Source: Akkermansia muciniphila (GTDB lineage Bacteria > Verrucomicrobiota > Verrucomicrobiia > Limisphaerales > UBA9464). From it: a stretch of DNA of 59,893 nt. Shown piece by piece: positions 7,671 to 59,893 of this stretch. A model generated the notes under the pieces. It saw nothing but the letters and a program-made list of their open reading frames with translations. It did not search any database and was not told the DNA's origin. The stretch spans positions 1-59,893 of the forward strand of contig CAMDGV010000022.1 in NCBI GenBank assembly GCA_945898055.1, read 5' to 3'. Both the position numbers and the translations under genes were made by a program. The number at the start of each line of letters is the position of its first letter. Position 1 is the first letter of the stretch.

Positions 7671-7755
7671 GGGCGCGTGGTGGAATTGGCAGACACGATG
7701 GACTTAGGATCCATTGGCGCAAGCCTTGCAGGTTCAACTCCTGTCGCGCCCACCA
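7671..7755 (+). tRNA. tRNA-Leu(UAG)
   Basis: An 85-base class II tRNA with encoded CCA. The acceptor stem GGGCGCG (7671-7677) pairs with CGCGCCC (7745-7751), followed by discriminator A and CCA (7753-7755). The anticodon stem ATGGA/TCCAT encloses the loop CTTAGGA, giving anticodon TAG (7705-7707), which reads CUN leucine codons. The T arm GGTTCAACTCC is standard and a long variable arm (about TGGCGCAAGCCT) is present, as expected for leucine. It lies 81 bases before the TPR lipoprotein gene on the same strand. Confidence 0.97.
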
Positions 7756-7836
7756 CTCCTGAAGACACGGTCTGATTCGCTCCTTTCTTCCTTCTCCTCT
7801 TTATTCGATCTTTCTCTCGTTCAACCCGCACTCCCT

Positions 7837-9864
7837 ATGCTGAAACGCACGATTCTCCAGATAATTGCCGTTCTGGCCTTAGCTTGGACTACTGGCGGGT
7901 GTAAACCCTCTGGTGACACGGCCCTCGTCCAGGGAACAGAACTGCTCAACAACGGCTTGACCAACGAAGCCGTGCACATGTTAGAAATAGCCGTCGAAAC
8001 TCTCCCGGGTAACGCCCTCGCTCTGAATCAGCTGGGCGTCGGTTACCAAACCGTGGGTCGCATCGATGACGCTAAGCTTGCCTACCTGCGAGCCATCGAG
8101 ATCGACCCTTCTCTACTCGCTGCCAATTACAATTTAGCTCTCCTCGCCGAAGCCAAAAGCGATTGGTTAGAAGCCGAGCGGCACCTACGTACCTACCTAG
8201 CTGCTAATCCAAATGAAGGCCATTCGTGGGCTCGCTTGGCAACCGTCCAATATCAATCAAAGAAAATCGACGACGCCGAACGGAGCTTTGCGAACGCGAA
8301 ACGTCTCAATGCAACCGCTGCTGAAGACTGGAACACGCTTGGACTGATCAGCATCCAAAAACGACGCTATCGAGAGGCTCAAGACCGCTTCCTCTGGGCT
8401 CGAAAATTAGACGGAAATCATCAACCCGCTCTCCTCAATCTAGCCATCTTACAGCACCAGTATCTCGGCGATCGCAAGAGTGCCCTCACTAACTACAGTG
8501 TGTGGCTCAAAACCAATCGGTCCGAGGCCGTTGCTGAGATCGTGCTCCACTTAACCGCTCAGTTCAACCCGACCCCACCCTCCCGTCCTAGTCTCCCTCT
8601 CACCCTCGCCCCCACTTCCGTCACGAATCTGCCGCTGCCCCTTTCACGATCCAATTCCGCTTTTTCGCCGCCGCGCGCCGCCGTTGCCCCCGGCCCCGTG
8701 GCCAACCTCACTCCGGCACGCACCCCCGCCGTTGCCCCCCGCCCCGTGGCCAACCTCACTCCGGCACGCACCCCTCTTCCTACCGTTCTCACCAACGTCG
8801 CGATTACTTTTCCTTCTAAATCGATTGAGCTTCCCTCCACGCCTGCCCCCCTTTCGGTTTCCCCGGTTACCCCAACTCAACCTCGACTCGAACCTCCGAC
8901 TAAACTCCCTCTTTCCTCCTCATTACTGACACCTCCGACGCAAGAGGTCGTCCAGATCGCCGAAGAGCCACCGCTTCTTCCTGCCCGTGCTCCAATCCTA
9001 TCCCCAGTCAAACCGGCACTTCCTCCCTCACCCGCAACTGATTCCCCGAACGAAGCCATCCCTGACGATCAACCCGATCCCAGTGCCAAGGTCTCCCTTA
9101 AAAAACGAACTGTCTGGAAGCGGGTGAATCCAGCTAACTGGTCAAATCCGGTAAAATGGTTCCGTAAGGATTCGACTAATCCGAGCGAACAAGTCTCCCT
9201 CCCACCCACGCCCGATCTTCCTAAACTCGTTCCAAAAGTCATTTCCAAAAAGACCACCCCTCTTCCAGTTCCGGTGATGGATCTCAATCCCCGAGCCCCC
9301 GAGCCAAAACTCCTTGGGTCGGTGCCGATTACCCGTCTCGAACCTTCGCCTCCGCGCTATACGGCACAACTCACCACTCCACTAAACCCCGGTGATCGCG
9401 CCTCGGCCGAAGTTCAATTCAAGGTAGCCGCAGCAGCGCACCAAAAAGGGACTCTGGCTGAGGCTATAAACGGATATCGGAGGACAATTGCGCTCGATCC
9501 TACTCATCACGAAGCCCACCACAACTTGGCACTTCTGGCCTTAAAGCAAGGCGACCTACCCCTCGCACTCTTGTCTTGCGAAAACGCGCTCCACCTCAAG
9601 CCCAAAGAATTCGAATCTCGGAAGACCTTCGCTCTCGCCCTCCAAAATTCTGGGTTCTTCGCGGATTCAGCGGCACAATTAGAGGGAATACTGCAAACTT
9701 TCCCCTCCGATTCTTCTCTCCATCTCGCCGCGGCGGGATTGTACGCAGGTCAACTCAAGAATATCGCTAGCGCCCGCCGACATTACCAATCCGTTTTAGC
9801 ACTCGAACCAACTCATCCACAGGCCGCCGCCATCCAATCATGGCTCACAACACCCCAGCGGTGA
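7837..9864 (+). CDS. TPR lipoprotein with proline-rich linker
   Basis: 675 residues from the ATG at 7837. A longer frame reaches back into tRNA-Leu and is rejected. The N-terminus MLKRTILQIIAVLALAW is a signal sequence ending in TTGGC, so Cys22 is probably lipidated. Residues about 30-225 are tetratricopeptide repeats (ALNQLGVGYQTVGRIDDAKL, AANYNLALLAEAKSDWLEAE). Residues about 230-530 are a Pro/Thr/Leu-rich, low-complexity linker containing an exact-looking 16-residue tandem duplication (AVAPGPVANLTPARTP then AVAPRPVANLTPARTP) and a basic patch near KRVNPANWSNPVKWFRK. Residues about 560-675 are a second TPR block (HHEAHHNLALLALKQGDLPL). The layout suggests an envelope scaffold with two protein-binding ends and a flexible spacer. 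Partner and pathway are unknown. Confidence 0.8.
   Translation: MLKRTILQIIAVLALAWTTGGCKPSGDTALVQGTELLNNGLTNEAVHMLEIAVETLPGNALALNQLGVGYQTVGRIDDAKLAYLRAIEIDPSLLAANYNLALLAEAKSDWLEAERHLRTYLAANPNEGHSWARLATVQYQSKKIDDAERSFANAKRLNATAAEDWNTLGLISIQKRRYREAQDRFLWARKLDGNHQPALLNLAILQHQYLGDRKSALTNYSVWLKTNRSEAVAEIVLHLTAQFNPTPPSRPSLPLTLAPTSVTNLPLPLSRSNSAFSPPRAAVAPGPVANLTPARTPAVAPRPVANLTPARTPLPTVLTNVAITFPSKSIELPSTPAPLSVSPVTPTQPRLEPPTKLPLSSSLLTPPTQEVVQIAEEPPLLPARAPILSPVKPALPPSPATDSPNEAIPDDQPDPSAKVSLKKRTVWKRVNPANWSNPVKWFRKDSTNPSEQVSLPPTPDLPKLVPKVISKKTTPLPVPVMDLNPRAPEPKLLGSVPITRLEPSPPRYTAQLTTPLNPGDRASAEVQFKVAAAAHQKGTLAEAINGYRRTIALDPTHHEAHHNLALLALKQGDLPLALLSCENALHLKPKEFESRKTFALALQNSGFFADSAAQLEGILQTFPSDSSLHLAAAGLYAGQLKNIASARRHYQSVLALEPTHPQAAAIQSWLTTPQR
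8680..8775 (+). repeat. Two tandem 48-bp repeats in the TPR lipoprotein linker
   Basis: Unit 1 is 8680-8727 and unit 2 is 8728-8775. They differ by about one base (GGC versus CGC codon, Gly to Arg) and keep frame, encoding 16 residues each. Near identity points to a recent slip or unequal exchange, so copy number may differ between strains. Confidence 0.9.
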
Positions 9865-54436: not shown

Positions 54437-54817
54437 TTAGGCGCGACCGGTAATGGCTAAACGCAGCTTAAGGAGGGAACCAGACACCAACTGAGTTTCC
54501 AGTGTGTGAGCAACGGTATTCTGGTTCATTTCCAGCATCTCTTGCTCTAGCTTCACGGTATTGCCGTCGCGATTCGACGATATCGCCGTGAGATCTTGAG
54601 ACACCGTCGGTCGCAGCATGCCCATTCGAGTCATATCGTTTGAATTTAAGGCTAAGGATAATTCAGTCTGAAAATTCTGCGCGACATCGACCCTCTTGTA
54701 GGCAGGTGTTTCAACATTGGCTAAATTGCTGGAAATCGCCTCATGCCGAAGAACAGTTGCATCCAAGAGTTTCTTGGTTGCCACGTAATTAGTTTGATTA
54801 AACAGGGACTGTATCAT
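54437..54817 (-). CDS. flgB: Flagellar basal-body rod protein FlgB
   Basis: 126 residues from the ATG at 54817 (MIQSLFNQTNYVATKKLL). A frame extending to 54856 adds 13 residues and is not preferred. The rod motif is LRHEAISSNLANVETPAYKRVDV, and the C-terminus LEQEMLEMNQNTVAHTLETQL fits FlgB. It is the first gene of the 15-gene flagellar operon. Its promoter should lie in the short space upstream, before the duplicated glycosyltransferase fragment begins at about 54958. Confidence 0.94.
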   Translation of the reverse strand: MIQSLFNQTNYVATKKLLDATVLRHEAISSNLANVETPAYKRVDVAQNFQTELSLALNSNDMTRMGMLRPTVSQDLTAISSNRDGNTVKLEQEMLEMNQNTVAHTLETQLVSGSLLKLRLAITGRA

Positions 54818-54957
54818 GCCTGCGCCTTCGCTCTTCCTTTGATAAGCAGCGAGCATGCCGAGACTCCTTCAAAGCCTTACCCCCATTTTTATTGGTTTTC
54901 AGCACGATCGCGGGGCGAAACACACTGCGACTGGGCATTTGCTGCCGAGCGCCACTC
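54818..54957 (-). promoter_or_regulatory. Presumed promoter region of the flagellar operon
   Basis: The 140 bases between flgB and the duplicated fragment must carry, or transmit, the start of the flagellar transcript. No sigma-28, sigma-54 or sigma-70 pair matches well; a TGGC...GC-like run at 54938-54957 has the wrong spacing for sigma-54. The duplicated copy abuts this region, so upstream control sites may have been moved or replaced. Confidence 0.3.
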
Positions 54958-55450
54958 TTCGAAACAGGCAGAAGTTGCGATATCGCACGAAGTCATCTTA
55001 CCGCCATCCACCCGAACAGAAGAGCCACGGACCAGGGCACGGCAACAGTGGCGGGTTTTCCGAGGCCGACCCGCGCCAATTAGTGACTAAATTGCTGGGT
55101 ATCGCCGATCCAAAAGGGTTTTCGGGCGAGTGTCCGAAGCCAAAAGACGATGAACGTATCTAGGAATGGAACCGCCAATACCGCCAATACCGCCAATACC
55201 GCCAATACCGCCAATACCGCCAATACCGCCAATACCGCCAATACCGCCAATACCGCCAATACCGCCAAGGAAGTCAAAGGGGGACACCGTCTGCGAGAGC
55301 GAGATTCGGTCGGCATAAAAATGAGGGTGCAAAGGGAGCACCGCGATGAGGTCGCCCACCAAAGCCCTCCCTGCATCTCCCAGAGAAACGGTTGCTCAGG
55401 GATAATTCTACGGCAGAAATCCCAAAAGAGCGCCCAAAATCAACCCCGCG
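54958..55450 (-). pseudogene. Tandem duplicate of the 3' part of the MraY/WecA-like gene, decayed
   Basis: A copy of 55455-55865, at about 90-95 percent identity by eye, shifted by 497 bases. It corresponds to the last about 124 codons of the intact gene plus 35 bases after its stop. The copy is non-functional: it has no start, five G in a row where the intact gene has four (a frameshift near 55276-55280), and a nine-base unit repeated ten times instead of once. The size difference of 82 bases is fully explained by 9x9 extra bases plus the extra G. The boundaries begin at TTCGAAACAGG and end at CAACCCCGC in both copies. Confidence 0.93.
55171..55269. repeat. Nine-base minisatellite ACCGCCAAT, ten copies
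   Basis: Ten perfect head-to-tail copies of ACCGCCAAT from 55171 to 55260, ending in the variant ACCGCCAAG (55261-55269). The intact gene has one copy plus the variant (55668-55685). On the minus strand in the gene's frame it encodes repeated Leu-Ala-Val, and because nine is a multiple of three the expansion would keep frame. Being perfect, it is recent, and its copy number is likely to vary. Confidence 0.97.
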
Positions 55451-55454
55451 ACTG

Positions 55455-55865
55455 TTCGAAACAGGCAGAAGTTGCGATATCGCACGAAGTCATCTTACCG
55501 CCATCCACCCGAACAGAAGAGCCACGGACCAGAGCACGGCAACAGCGGCGGGTTTTCCGAGGCCGACCCGCACCAATTGATGACTAAAATGCTGGGTATC
55601 GCCGATCCAAAAGGGTTTTCGGGCGAGTGTCCGAAGCCAAAAGACGGTGAACGTATCTAGAAATGGAACCGCCAATACCGCCAAGGAAGTCAAAGGGGAC
55701 ATCGTCTGCGAGAGCGAGATTCGGTCGGCATAAAAATGAGGGAGCAAAGGGAGCACCGCCATGAGGTAGCCCACCAAATGACTCCCTGCATCTCCCAGAA
55801 AAACGGTTGCGCGGGGATAATTATAAGGCAGAAATCCCAAAAGAGCGCCCAAGATCAACCCCGCA
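55455..55865 (-). repeat. Parent copy of the tandem duplication
   Basis: This 411-base part of the MraY/WecA-like gene and its 3' flank is the source of the decayed copy at 54958-55450. Only four bases separate the two copies (55451-55454). Confidence 0.9.
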
Positions 55866-56470
55866 AAAGCCCCTGCCATAATATGGCCACTATTCGCATA
55901 AATAATTCCAAAAAATAAAGCCCCAATAGCTCCTAAGCCGCCGCATAACCCGTTCATATTGTCGCTAAGATTGAAGACATTGGTCACCACCACAATCCAG
56001 ACCACCGTCGCTAGTCCATTCAACAGGGGATTAAGAACGAAAAACGCTCCTTGAACTCCTCCTAAAACAACGATTATCGCCATCAGAATCTGACCCAAGA
56101 ATTTGTGGGCTGGTTTCAGTTCCAAATGATCATCGCACCCTCCCAAGAGGACCATTCCGACCGCTGCCACCACAACGGTGGCCAATGAGACAAGTAGTCG
56201 GAAAGGAATCTCGGTCAATTTTGTGAAAAACCCCGACTCAAAGAATCCTCCCATAATCACTAACGCTACCACCGATGCCCCCGAAAGCAGGCCAGTCAAA
56301 ACAGCAAATCCGCCGGCTAAAGGGACGGGGTGAGTATGGATCTTTCGAAAGCCGGGATCATCCAATAGGCCTAGACGCCGACACAAATTCCGCCAAAAGG
56401 GCAGGCTGAGCCCTGAACCGAGTGCTCCGGCCGCCACGGACAATAGAAAAAAATTCTCAGGAAAGCTCAT
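55490..56470 (-). CDS. MraY/WecA-type glycosyltransferase (GT4, polyprenyl-phosphate sugar-1-phosphate transferase)
   Basis: 326 residues, about ten membrane helices. This family transfers a sugar-1-phosphate from a UDP-sugar to undecaprenyl phosphate, starting cell-surface polymers. Signature motifs are intact: DDP..RKIHTHPVPLAGG (Asp37-Asp38 and Lys43), GGCDDHLELKPAHK (Asp113-Asp114), NVFNLSDNMNGL (Asn167, Asp170), FLGDAGS (Asp227) and the HxxH-like HFSH (294-297). The presence of the last motif and the family context fit WecA-like rather than MraY proper, but I cannot choose the sugar. No other polysaccharide gene is on this side except the membrane-TPR protein upstream. Confidence 0.88.
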   Translation of the reverse strand: MSFPENFFLLSVAAGALGSGLSLPFWRNLCRRLGLLDDPGFRKIHTHPVPLAGGFAVLTGLLSGASVVALVIMGGFFESGFFTKLTEIPFRLLVSLATVVVAAVGMVLLGGCDDHLELKPAHKFLGQILMAIIVVLGGVQGAFFVLNPLLNGLATVVWIVVVTNVFNLSDNMNGLCGGLGAIGALFFGIIYANSGHIMAGAFAGLILGALLGFLPYNYPRATVFLGDAGSHLVGYLMAVLPLLPHFYADRISLSQTMSPLTSLAVLAVPFLDTFTVFWLRTLARKPFWIGDTQHFSHQLVRVGLGKPAAVAVLWSVALLFGWMAVR

Positions 56471-56826: not shown

Positions 56827-59643
56827 TTACCGCGCTGCGCGAAGGGCAGCCAGCCGTTGAACGACATTGGTGAATTCCCCCGTTTGGCGAGGTGCGATTT
56901 CCAAATAACGCTCAAGATGTTCTACTTCTTGACGCCCATTTTTTTGCAGACGAGCTACCTCAGCCAGCCCATAACAGACCTGAAAGTCTTCCGATCCATC
57001 TCGAATTAAGCGTTGATAATCTGCCCGCGCTTCCTCTAATTGATTCAATTTGAGACGAGAAATAGCCCGATTTATCCGTGCTAAAGCATTATCGGGGGAT
57101 TGATCCAACACTCGGGTTAAGACCTCAGCAGCCTCCTTAAATTTCTCAGTCTGAAGAAAAATCAAGGCCCGACGGGAAATAGCTTCTAAGCTTCTCGGAA
57201 ATGCTTTTTCCCATTGATCGGCAATCGAAAGAGCATCATCCGCTCGCCCATGAAGCAAATATAAATAGGATAAAAGGTCAGCGACCGAACCATTCAATGG
57301 ATCTAAACTCAGTGCCAATCGCAGATGACCTTCTGCTGACTTAAAATCGTTATTTTCCAAAAAGATCCGTGCATCAAATTCAGCCATCTTGGATTTCTCC
57401 AAAGGAGTCCATTCACCCTGATCCGTGGCGGATCGCACCGCAGCCATCGCATTAGTGGCCGATTTCAAATCTCCGAAAGCAAATGCAGAACGAATAAAGC
57501 TTATCCGATACAATCGATTGGTGGGCACTAGATGGACCGCCCGATCAAAGCTTAAAGCGGCCCGACGAACCAATCCCTGATTTTGGGCGAGCAATCCAGT
57601 CCCGAACAAGCGGAGAAACTCCGGTTCATCCACGGGCCCATGAACATCTAACAATCCTGCTTTTTTATCCCAGGCATTCCATGCCTCGACCCCGGGCATT
57701 TTACCTGCTGAAAGTGACTTATTAACTAATAGATTCGCGACCGCCGCGGCATTTTCCGGATTCAGATTTATCGCTAAGTTGAACGCCTTAGCCGCTTCAG
57801 CGAGATGCCCTGCCCGCTGATAAAAAACCCCGGAAACATTAGCTGTCCGTGACCATAGGCTGCTCACAAGAAACGCATTGGAGGCACCTGATGCCCGATC
57901 ACGGACCGCCGCTTGGGTCACCGGTTCCACCGTCTTCCAAAACTGTTGGACCGCCGCCAGATCAGCGTCTGCGGTTGGTTTTTCCAGAAGTGATTGACGA
58001 GGTAACGCTCCCTGAATGGAACCGACCGGTATAAAATCAAATAACTCGGCAAAAAAACTAAAAACAGGCGCAGCGCAAAAGAGCCGTTTCGATCGTGCCG
58101 CCTCGCTCGCGACCGTGAGCCAGATGCCCGCTACATTTTCCCTCGCATTTACCACATTCGTCAACCCGGGCCACTGGTTCCCGTGGTGCTTCAGCATAAA
58201 TCGTCGATAATCCAGAAGTGGAGCCAAATGGCTACTCACCACCATCAACCCCGAACTGGTACCCATCGTTTTGTCGCCAGCCAACAAAGCTCGTCCCAAC
58301 AGCGGATCCTCACAGTAAACCAAGGACGATCCGCTTCTCATGGGAATCAGCATCGTTTTAACATATTCCTGTAATCCTATTCCGTTCTCCACCCGCACCA
58401 CGGGGTAATTGCGATAAAGAAGTACCGCTGGTACCGCGACCGTGGCCGCGACCGATAGGCCAGCCAACAGTCGAAAGAACATCCGCCCCAAAGAACTCTC
58501 TTGAGAGACATAACGATCATCGGGTTTCACCGTTGCCATCAATAAATAATACCCGGCCAAATAACCCACCACGAGACTACCACAGAAAGAAAAGGTCAGT
58601 AAAGGAAGCCCATACCCCAGTTGCCTCGGGCTGAATCGGCTATCAAATGCCACTGCAATGCAGGCGACAAACCAAACTAATTTCAACAACTGCCAGACCA
58701 ATTTAGTCATTAAGCGATCCACGCCTGTTCCTGACGGAGTTCCCCAGCGAAAGCCCAAAGCGGCTAGGGGGAAGATCATAAGTAACGCCAGAAAAACAAA
58801 ACGAGGGCGAGGAAACATCAATAACTGGTTTTTTTTCTCCTCGAGAATGCCCACCATAATTTGCCAAAAACCTTGATCTAACCGACTCGTCAGATTTCCA
58901 AACACTGGGATGAGTAAAAGAAGGCTCAATCCCAAAAAGAAGGCCAGAAAAAGGCGAACAAGAAAGCCCCATCGAAAAAAGGCTACTCCCTGCATCCAAG
59001 CAACCGAAACCAAGAAAAACGGAGCGAACCCGAGCATGCTCCAGTTATCGGCACACCCCAAACCAACCACCAAGGCCAATTTGGTCAACCGCCCCTCTTT
59101 TTTATCCAATCGAAACTCCAGAAGATTCCGAATGCACCAAGCAAACAAAAGCAGATCCAGCATCTGTCCCGTGTACGCCGTTGCATGTTCCCAAAAAAGA
59201 TACTGAAAACTAAGCAAAAGGGTCGCGAGCACGGGTGGCACCCAAGCTAACGGGATAGTGAGGAGGGCGATTGAAGACCGTTCGCGGATGCGCTCTTCAT
59301 TTTGACGATCATAGGGTAGAAGGGCGACTGAGCGAGCGAGCAAAAAAAGAACACTTCCCGCCATCAAAGAAGTAAAAAAATTAGCAAGAAAAGGAAAGGA
59401 AAGACCCGTCCGCGTTAGTCCACTGACCAACCATCCAAAAATCAAGTGAAGGGGTTCGGTATTGGGAGACTCAAAGGCCCAACCAGAGGCCCCCACTATT
59501 GGCAAGAGGCTCTGTATGCCAATCCATGGATTTAGGGTCGCCAAAAAGACGACCAGAACCGAAGACGCCAACAGCCATGGCAGCTTCCGTGTGACAAAGA
59601 GACGAGAAGAACGCGAAACATCTGCCATATGTTTCTTAAGCAT
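56827..59643 (-). CDS. Multi-membrane GT-C/DUF2723-like protein with C-terminal TPR domain
   Basis: 938 residues from the ATG at 59643 (MLKKHMADVSRSSRLFV); an ATG at 59628 is possible. The open frame continues upstream to 59811, but that stretch is group II intron sequence and is not part of the gene. Residues about 20-450 hold about ten to twelve membrane helices with the pattern FQYLFWEHATAYTGQMLDLLLF and GCADNWSMLGFAPFFLV, close to DUF2723 proteins of the GT-C superfamily. The usual first-loop acidic motif (D-x-GE) is replaced by FESPNTEPLHLIF. Residues about 560-930 are TPRs (AAKAFNLAINLNPENAAAV, AEGHLRLALSLDPLNG, ARINRAISRLKLNQLEEARADYQR). The shape matches eukaryotic TMTC mannosyltransferases, suggesting protein glycosylation, but the donor and acceptor are not known. 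Confidence 0.7.
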   Translation of the reverse strand: MLKKHMADVSRSSRLFVTRKLPWLLASSVLVVFLATLNPWIGIQSLLPIVGASGWAFESPNTEPLHLIFGWLVSGLTRTGLSFPFLANFFTSLMAGSVLFLLARSVALLPYDRQNEERIRERSSIALLTIPLAWVPPVLATLLLSFQYLFWEHATAYTGQMLDLLLFAWCIRNLLEFRLDKKEGRLTKLALVVGLGCADNWSMLGFAPFFLVSVAWMQGVAFFRWGFLVRLFLAFFLGLSLLLLIPVFGNLTSRLDQGFWQIMVGILEEKKNQLLMFPRPRFVFLALLMIFPLAALGFRWGTPSGTGVDRLMTKLVWQLLKLVWFVACIAVAFDSRFSPRQLGYGLPLLTFSFCGSLVVGYLAGYYLLMATVKPDDRYVSQESSLGRMFFRLLAGLSVAATVAVPAVLLYRNYPVVRVENGIGLQEYVKTMLIPMRSGSSLVYCEDPLLGRALLAGDKTMGTSSGLMVVSSHLAPLLDYRRFMLKHHGNQWPGLTNVVNARENVAGIWLTVASEAARSKRLFCAAPVFSFFAELFDFIPVGSIQGALPRQSLLEKPTADADLAAVQQFWKTVEPVTQAAVRDRASGASNAFLVSSLWSRTANVSGVFYQRAGHLAEAAKAFNLAINLNPENAAAVANLLVNKSLSAGKMPGVEAWNAWDKKAGLLDVHGPVDEPEFLRLFGTGLLAQNQGLVRRAALSFDRAVHLVPTNRLYRISFIRSAFAFGDLKSATNAMAAVRSATDQGEWTPLEKSKMAEFDARIFLENNDFKSAEGHLRLALSLDPLNGSVADLLSYLYLLHGRADDALSIADQWEKAFPRSLEAISRRALIFLQTEKFKEAAEVLTRVLDQSPDNALARINRAISRLKLNQLEEARADYQRLIRDGSEDFQVCYGLAEVARLQKNGRQEVEHLERYLEIAPRQTGEFTNVVQRLAALRAAR

Positions 59644-59721
59644 TGAATAGAAAAAGGATAAAGGCAACGGCTTCAATAAAATTCGGGGGGCGTTGACTTT
59701 GACGGAGTCGTGTGGAATCGG

Positions 59722-59893
59722 GTAGGGGTAGGGATGGCCGTTGTCGGCCACCCCTCCCTCCGAACCGGACTGGCGGATTTCCCGCATCCGGCTCTCCAGT
59801 CGGTGAGTCACCCGCTTGTGGCGGGACTGGTGCGTTTGGCTTGGGCTAAGGCGTATAGAGAGATTAGCCCGAGCTTCTCGAAGAACGCATTGG
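59722..59893 (-). mobile_element. 3' end of a group II intron
   Basis: Read on the minus strand. Domain V (59794-59762, 33 bases) begins GAGCCGGA and ends TCCGGTTC, so the closing stem pairs with the conserved AGC triad. The inner stem is GCGG/CCGC with loop GAAAT and a small bulge CAG. Domain VI follows at about 59760-59722: TGGCCG/CGGCCA with an ACAA loop, an outer G/C-rich stem, and an unpaired A (59729) seven bases before the likely 3' splice site at about 59722, where the sequence ends in AC. The reverse transcriptase stop codon lies 13 bases before domain V. The 5' part is beyond the right edge. It sits about 80 bases upstream of the membrane-TPR gene, in the same orientation. Confidence 0.82.
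59808..59893 (-). CDS. Group II intron reverse transcriptase, C-terminal end only
   Basis: The frame that ends at TGA 59810-59808 and leaves the window on the right encodes NAFFEKLGLISLYALAQAK followed by a short tail. The phrase N-[AP]-[FY]-F..-GL-[FI]-SL is the usual C-terminus of group II intron maturases. Only 27 codons are visible, so the domain content and intactness cannot be judged. Orientation and place agree with domain V just downstream. Confidence 0.75.
   Translation of the reverse strand, partial: NAFFEKLGLISLYALAQAKRTSPATSG

Follow-up and report, generated by a model that had tools for sequence, protein, structure and literature searches.

Gene order and the duplicated segment

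The window (the whole 59,893-nucleotide stretch of DNA that was analysed) encodes on its minus strand a TPR gene, an intact sugar-phosphate transferase gene and a flagellar operon beginning with flgB. A partial second copy of the transferase gene, containing a perfect nine-base minisatellite, is located between the intact gene and flgB. From high to low coordinates, the features are:

56827-59811, minus strand: TPR gene
55490-56470, minus strand: intact glycosyltransferase family 4 gene (WecA/MraY-like polyprenyl-phosphate sugar-phosphate transferase), 326 aa, PF00953
55447-55864, minus strand: right (parent) copy, made up of the final 375 bp of the CDS and the next 43 bp downstream, from a gapped alignment
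55668-55684, no strand assigned: seed of 1 + 8/9 unit in the intact gene (17 bases, LAVLAV before PFLDT), from the alignment
55447-55449, no strand assigned: putative duplication junction with 3-bp microhomology (CGC), on which the matches of the two copies end and begin
54950-55449, minus strand: left copy, a pseudogene fragment interrupted by in-frame stops (parental codons 216, 220 and 298) and by an extra base at 55279
55171-55268, no strand assigned: perfect minisatellite, (ACCGCCAAT)10 + 8/9 unit (TRF score 196, 10.9 copies, 100%)
54844-54860, minus strand: sigma-54-type -24/-12-like site between the duplicate and flgB, CGGCAT-N5-CTGC, 42 bp from the FlgB ATG
54437-54817, minus strand: flgB, then flgC, fliE and fliF (TIGR01396, TIGR01395, TIGR00205 and TIGR00206, all above cut-off)

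The transferase product matches PF00953 with an E value of 1.7e-29 (103.3 bits, against a gathering score of 27). Its closest NCBIfam models are wecA, archaeal MraY and mraY, all of which score under their cut-offs. Matches to this protein were found in 57 of 59 genomes (own genome counted).

In a gapped alignment, the left copy (500 bp) pairs head-to-tail with the right copy (418 bp), inside which the 3' 375 bp of the transferase CDS fall. The copies differ by 23 substitutions over 418 aligned bases (5.5%). The indels between them are a single extra G at 55279 and an 81-base insertion, both in the left copy, and the insertion consists of nine additional ACCGCCAAT units. The left match ends and the right match starts on the same CGC, and the tandem period is 497 bp. 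The match is not due to chance (BLAST E 4e-107 for its longer piece); a partial copy adjoins the intact gene head-to-tail, as in a tandem partial gene duplication. An earlier note on this DNA had described a head-to-tail duplication of the 3' 411 bases. The duplication is confirmed and its length is corrected to 418 bp, as the match extends 8 bp further left via two mismatches. The "5-10 percent" of other changes given there agrees at its low end with the measured 5.5% plus one extra G.

The longest exact run common to both copies is 78 bp (54958-55035, identical in the other copy), and another is 57 bp. The 78-bp identity could reflect some gene conversion between the copies. The palindrome TGCGATATCGCA is present in both, having been duplicated along with the segment, and is presumably due to chance. 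Inspection of the sequence and of the list of open reading frames revealed no mobile element at either edge of the duplicate.

Decay of the left copy

In the parental frame, the left copy is interrupted by stops at codons 216 (TAG), 220 (TGA) and 298 (TAA), and it also carries a frameshift. Nineteen codons differ between the copies, and 15 of these differences alter the amino acid or create a stop. Residues were compared with those of 42 relatives, a set that omits L032-L040 (further matches in genomes already used, L032 excepted), L041-L043 (on the same contigs as L003-L005) and L044 (which ends before the motif). At 11 of the 15 changed codons the right residue is present among the relatives and the left residue or stop occurs in none. 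Some residues that are invariant in all 42 relatives are nevertheless changed on the left (e.g., 224 Phe, 230 Ser and 294 His). Codon 257 leans slightly the other way, with the left residue in two of the 42 relatives and the right residue in none, and at codons 237, 275 and 300 the comparison is split or does not decide between the copies. The broken frame and the altered conserved residues mark the left copy as a decaying pseudogene fragment.

The nine-base array

The array spans 98 bp and encodes Leu-Ala-Val codons on the minus strand. Its near-identical head-to-tail units are of the kind that defines bacterial minisatellites and VNTRs (several units of about 6-100 bp). Ten perfect units, against one in the parent, had been reported in the earlier note; the array is indeed perfect, and the counts are better given as 10 + 8/9 and 1 + 8/9. 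A two-unit pattern searched across the 4.63-Mb draft genome with at most two mismatches gave 11 overlapping matches, every one within the array or the seed. The AC-rich strand of the array is without structure. The G-rich strand folds somewhat better than shuffled sequences and is not unusual (z -1.36; 18 of 200 shuffles fold as well). Thus, no strong hairpin explains slippage at this site.

Repeats elsewhere in the genome were sampled in twenty 20-kb stretches, which total 400 kb of the 4.63 Mb. Other perfect short-unit arrays in this sample comprise units of 10 bp (5.7 copies), 13 bp (3.0 copies) and 9 bp (3.6 and 2.8 copies), and three of the 20 stretches, including a low-complexity one, contain local direct repeats of 60 bp or more within 4 kb. 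Arrays and local duplications of such a kind are not rare in this genome. The 400-kb sample contains no perfect array as long as that at 55171-55268, which therefore lies at the upper end for the genome.

Some of the other repeats can be described individually. On contig C9 (L074:11571-11627), a perfect array of ACGCCCGTCA with 5.7 copies lies within an ORF of 118 aa without a Pfam match. Contig C14 (L079:10511-13128) carries direct repeats of 390, 155 and 77 bp with 93-97% identity over 2.6 kb, and the two ORFs tested there are without Pfam match. In the window itself, a 48-bp unit, a whole number of codons, is present in two copies (8678-8774; 97% matches) inside the gene for a 716-aa TPR protein (7714-9864).

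Comparison with related genomes

Among the 59 genomes (own genome counted), the nearest orthologues of the transferase share 53-54% protein identity, and none closer was found in the genus set of 19 genomes (own genome counted). A record search that may omit records very near the window's own yielded no other genome of the species. With the closest orthologues at this distance, the events cannot be dated from outside comparison. Searches at title and abstract level returned no publication describing this locus or genus.

The gene order TPR gene, transferase, flgB is identical in 16 non-redundant congener loci, which appear to represent 16 different genomes of the window's genus. They derive from 21 gaps, from which L041-L043, L050 and L051 were dropped (same contigs as L003-L005, L037 and L038); the congeners G006 (contig cut within the gene) and G008 (34% match only) fall outside this count. 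The gap between the transferase stop and the FlgB ATG is 162-276 bp in the congeners versus 672 bp here. The three closest relatives have gaps of 171-172 bp, and subtraction of one 497-bp period from 672 bp leaves 175 bp. The intergenic region is thus ordinary apart from the duplicate. The duplicate is absent from all 16 congener gaps and, among the loci compared, appears to be present only in this genome.

Repeated LAV units before the PxxD motif were found in none of the 42 relatives. Three of the 42 carry a 3-residue insertion relative to the query within residues 255-275, and these sequences are not LAV repeats. None of the 58 other genomes contains three exact ACCGCCAAT units.

Three public records titled Akkermansia muciniphila (L043, L046 and L048) contain this flagellar locus and correspond to genomes belonging to the window's genus. 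A. muciniphila is not known to be motile, and the species names of these records look doubtful.

The region upstream of the flagellar genes

As the earlier note had it, the array lies some 350 bases upstream of the flagellar start; its edge lies 354 bp before the FlgB ATG (54817). The left copy as a whole ends 133 bp from this ATG, and the 132 bp next to flgB, including the promoter-like site, are in place. In all 16 non-redundant congener gaps CGGCAT-N5-TTGC is found at 38-40 bp before the FlgB ATG. This pattern and its CTGC variant may represent a sigma-54 -24/-12 promoter, whose consensus they resemble, and the genome encodes a protein with a sigma-54 DNA-binding domain. A search for the strict pattern does not recover the site in the window, which is one base off; it matches the window once, elsewhere (1672-1686), against a chance expectation of 0.45. 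The support therefore comes from conservation and fixed position in the congeners and not from the window's site alone. The conserved site suggests that, in this verrucomicrobial genus, flgB and the genes that follow it may depend on sigma-54.

The duplicate lies upstream of the promoter-like site and thus does not separate it from the operon. The transferase also precedes flgB in the 16 congener loci, and for both of these reasons the flagellar proximity of the duplicate is probably incidental. No Rfam match was found in the region, nor was there an excess of promoters (none, 1.4 expected) or terminators (five, 3.8 expected).

At one congener locus (L055:5177-8942), flgB is followed by a weak FlgC match (32%) only, and neither FliE nor FliF was matched at E 1e-4 in 3 kb of further sequence. 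The flagellar operon there may be broken or replaced.

Origin of the duplicate and of the array

The best account, to which we give a probability of about 0.88, is a single tandem duplication, decay of the spare copy and then slippage from a two-copy seed. About 415 bp would have been duplicated in a one-off event, of which 375 bp come from the end of the WecA/MraY-like gene and about 40 bp from the sequence downstream; the 3-bp microhomology at the junction is of the sort seen with template slippage or illegitimate recombination. Lacking the 5' part of the gene, the spare copy would have decayed as a pseudogene and is probably neutral. Replication slippage in this unconstrained copy would then have taken the tract from about two to about 11 units; in the intact gene, selection probably holds the length of the helix. 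The birth of minisatellites from short repeats via slippage or unequal crossing-over has been described as a model (Haber and Louis 1998, cited in PMC6947457).

The order of duplication and expansion rests on parsimony. The proposal of the earlier note that the minisatellite grew after the duplication is upheld, given that no expansion is seen in any of the 42 relatives and that the array is perfect inside a 5.5%-diverged copy. If the array were as old as the duplication, the probability of finding its 98 bp untouched would be 0.065-0.004, for a left branch bearing 50-100% of the 23 changes. This favours later growth as modest evidence, because slippage also homogenises arrays and so erases differences; the further claim that the growth was recent is therefore moderately supported. 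The reverse order, in which expansion occurred in the intact gene before duplication and the intact copy later contracted to about two units, is compatible with the two sequences alone. We consider it improbable, as it requires the tract to lose all its extra units again, to the state found in all 42 relatives, and the array is without the divergence of its surroundings. Similarly improbable is an assembly artefact in which two strain haplotypes were joined head-to-tail. The draft genome consists of 136 contigs and a divergence of 5.5% is within the range of strain differences, but the intact gene of a second strain is not expected to have three stops and a frameshift, and the gap minus one period (175 bp) is near that of the closest relatives. 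These features make a haplotype join unlikely. The lengths of the longest shared exact run (78 bp) and of the array (98 bp) also argue against it; both would be within reach of commonly used long k-mers.

Two further readings concern function. The earlier note had suggested that recombination could move variable repeats into the functional gene, and this is not borne out: the left copy is broken, the right copy is without added units and no relative is expanded. The left copy could in principle be a hypervariable store from which LAV units are shifted into the intact transferase to vary the length of a membrane helix. The unit length is a multiple of three, and exact runs of 78 and 57 bp suffice in principle for homologous recombination. 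This reading is nonetheless hard to credit in view of the three stops and the frameshift in the would-be donor, the lack of expansion in the intact gene and in all 42 relatives, and the absence of the duplicate from the 16 congener gaps, which leaves no sign of a maintained system. Recurring donors or expanded recipients, as expected of a gene-conversion cassette, were found in none of the 42 relatives and none of the 58 other genomes. An effect of the array or insert on expression of the flagellar operon, through enhancer spacing or transferase read-through, would be compatible with duplication, decay and slippage as the origin. The duplicate is upstream of flgB, a conserved sigma-54-type site adjoins flgB, and sigma-54 promoters use upstream activator sites. 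Such an effect is very unlikely, since the flgB-proximal stretch with the promoter-like site was left in place, the insert is missing from all 16 congener gaps, and neither the Rfam scan nor the counts of promoters and terminators point to one. Overall, the duplicate and its array look like the product of ordinary mutation, not like a device that works.

Comparison with known systems

As described in an excerpt of a Wolbachia report (PMC3287509), bacterial VNTR loci likewise consist of near-identical head-to-tail units on the chromosome, with slippage proposed as their source. The Wolbachia units described there are 105 and 141 bp versus nine bases here, and the array in our window differs further in that its seed is coding sequence in a pseudogene fragment and in that it is known from one genome.

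Decayed tandem partial gene duplications show the same head-to-tail partial copy, microhomology junction, stops and frameshift. There is no essential difference from the present case, in which the minisatellite would be a secondary event. Contingency loci for phase variation likewise have short-unit repeats, and here too the repeat is near a gene of an envelope-polysaccharide family. In those loci, however, the repeat lies within a functional gene's promoter or reading frame, whereas the expanded array here is in the broken copy only, outside the promoter and frame of the working gene, and a nine-base unit cannot switch frame.

Implications

The case alters nothing in existing knowledge, and a function of the duplicate is without evidence. 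We regard it as highly improbable that the spare copy is a slippage-prone donor to the transferase or that array length alters the region upstream of the flagellar promoter. Were either true, the result would be heritable variation in envelope polysaccharide or motility; in the case of a donor, Leu-Ala-Val triplets would enter a membrane helix beside the conserved PxxD motif. On the account of duplication, decay and slippage, the locus would be a tidy example of the birth of a minisatellite, in which a two-copy repeat grew only in the copy that is free of selection, so that the intact neighbour, with 1.9 units, acts as a built-in control.
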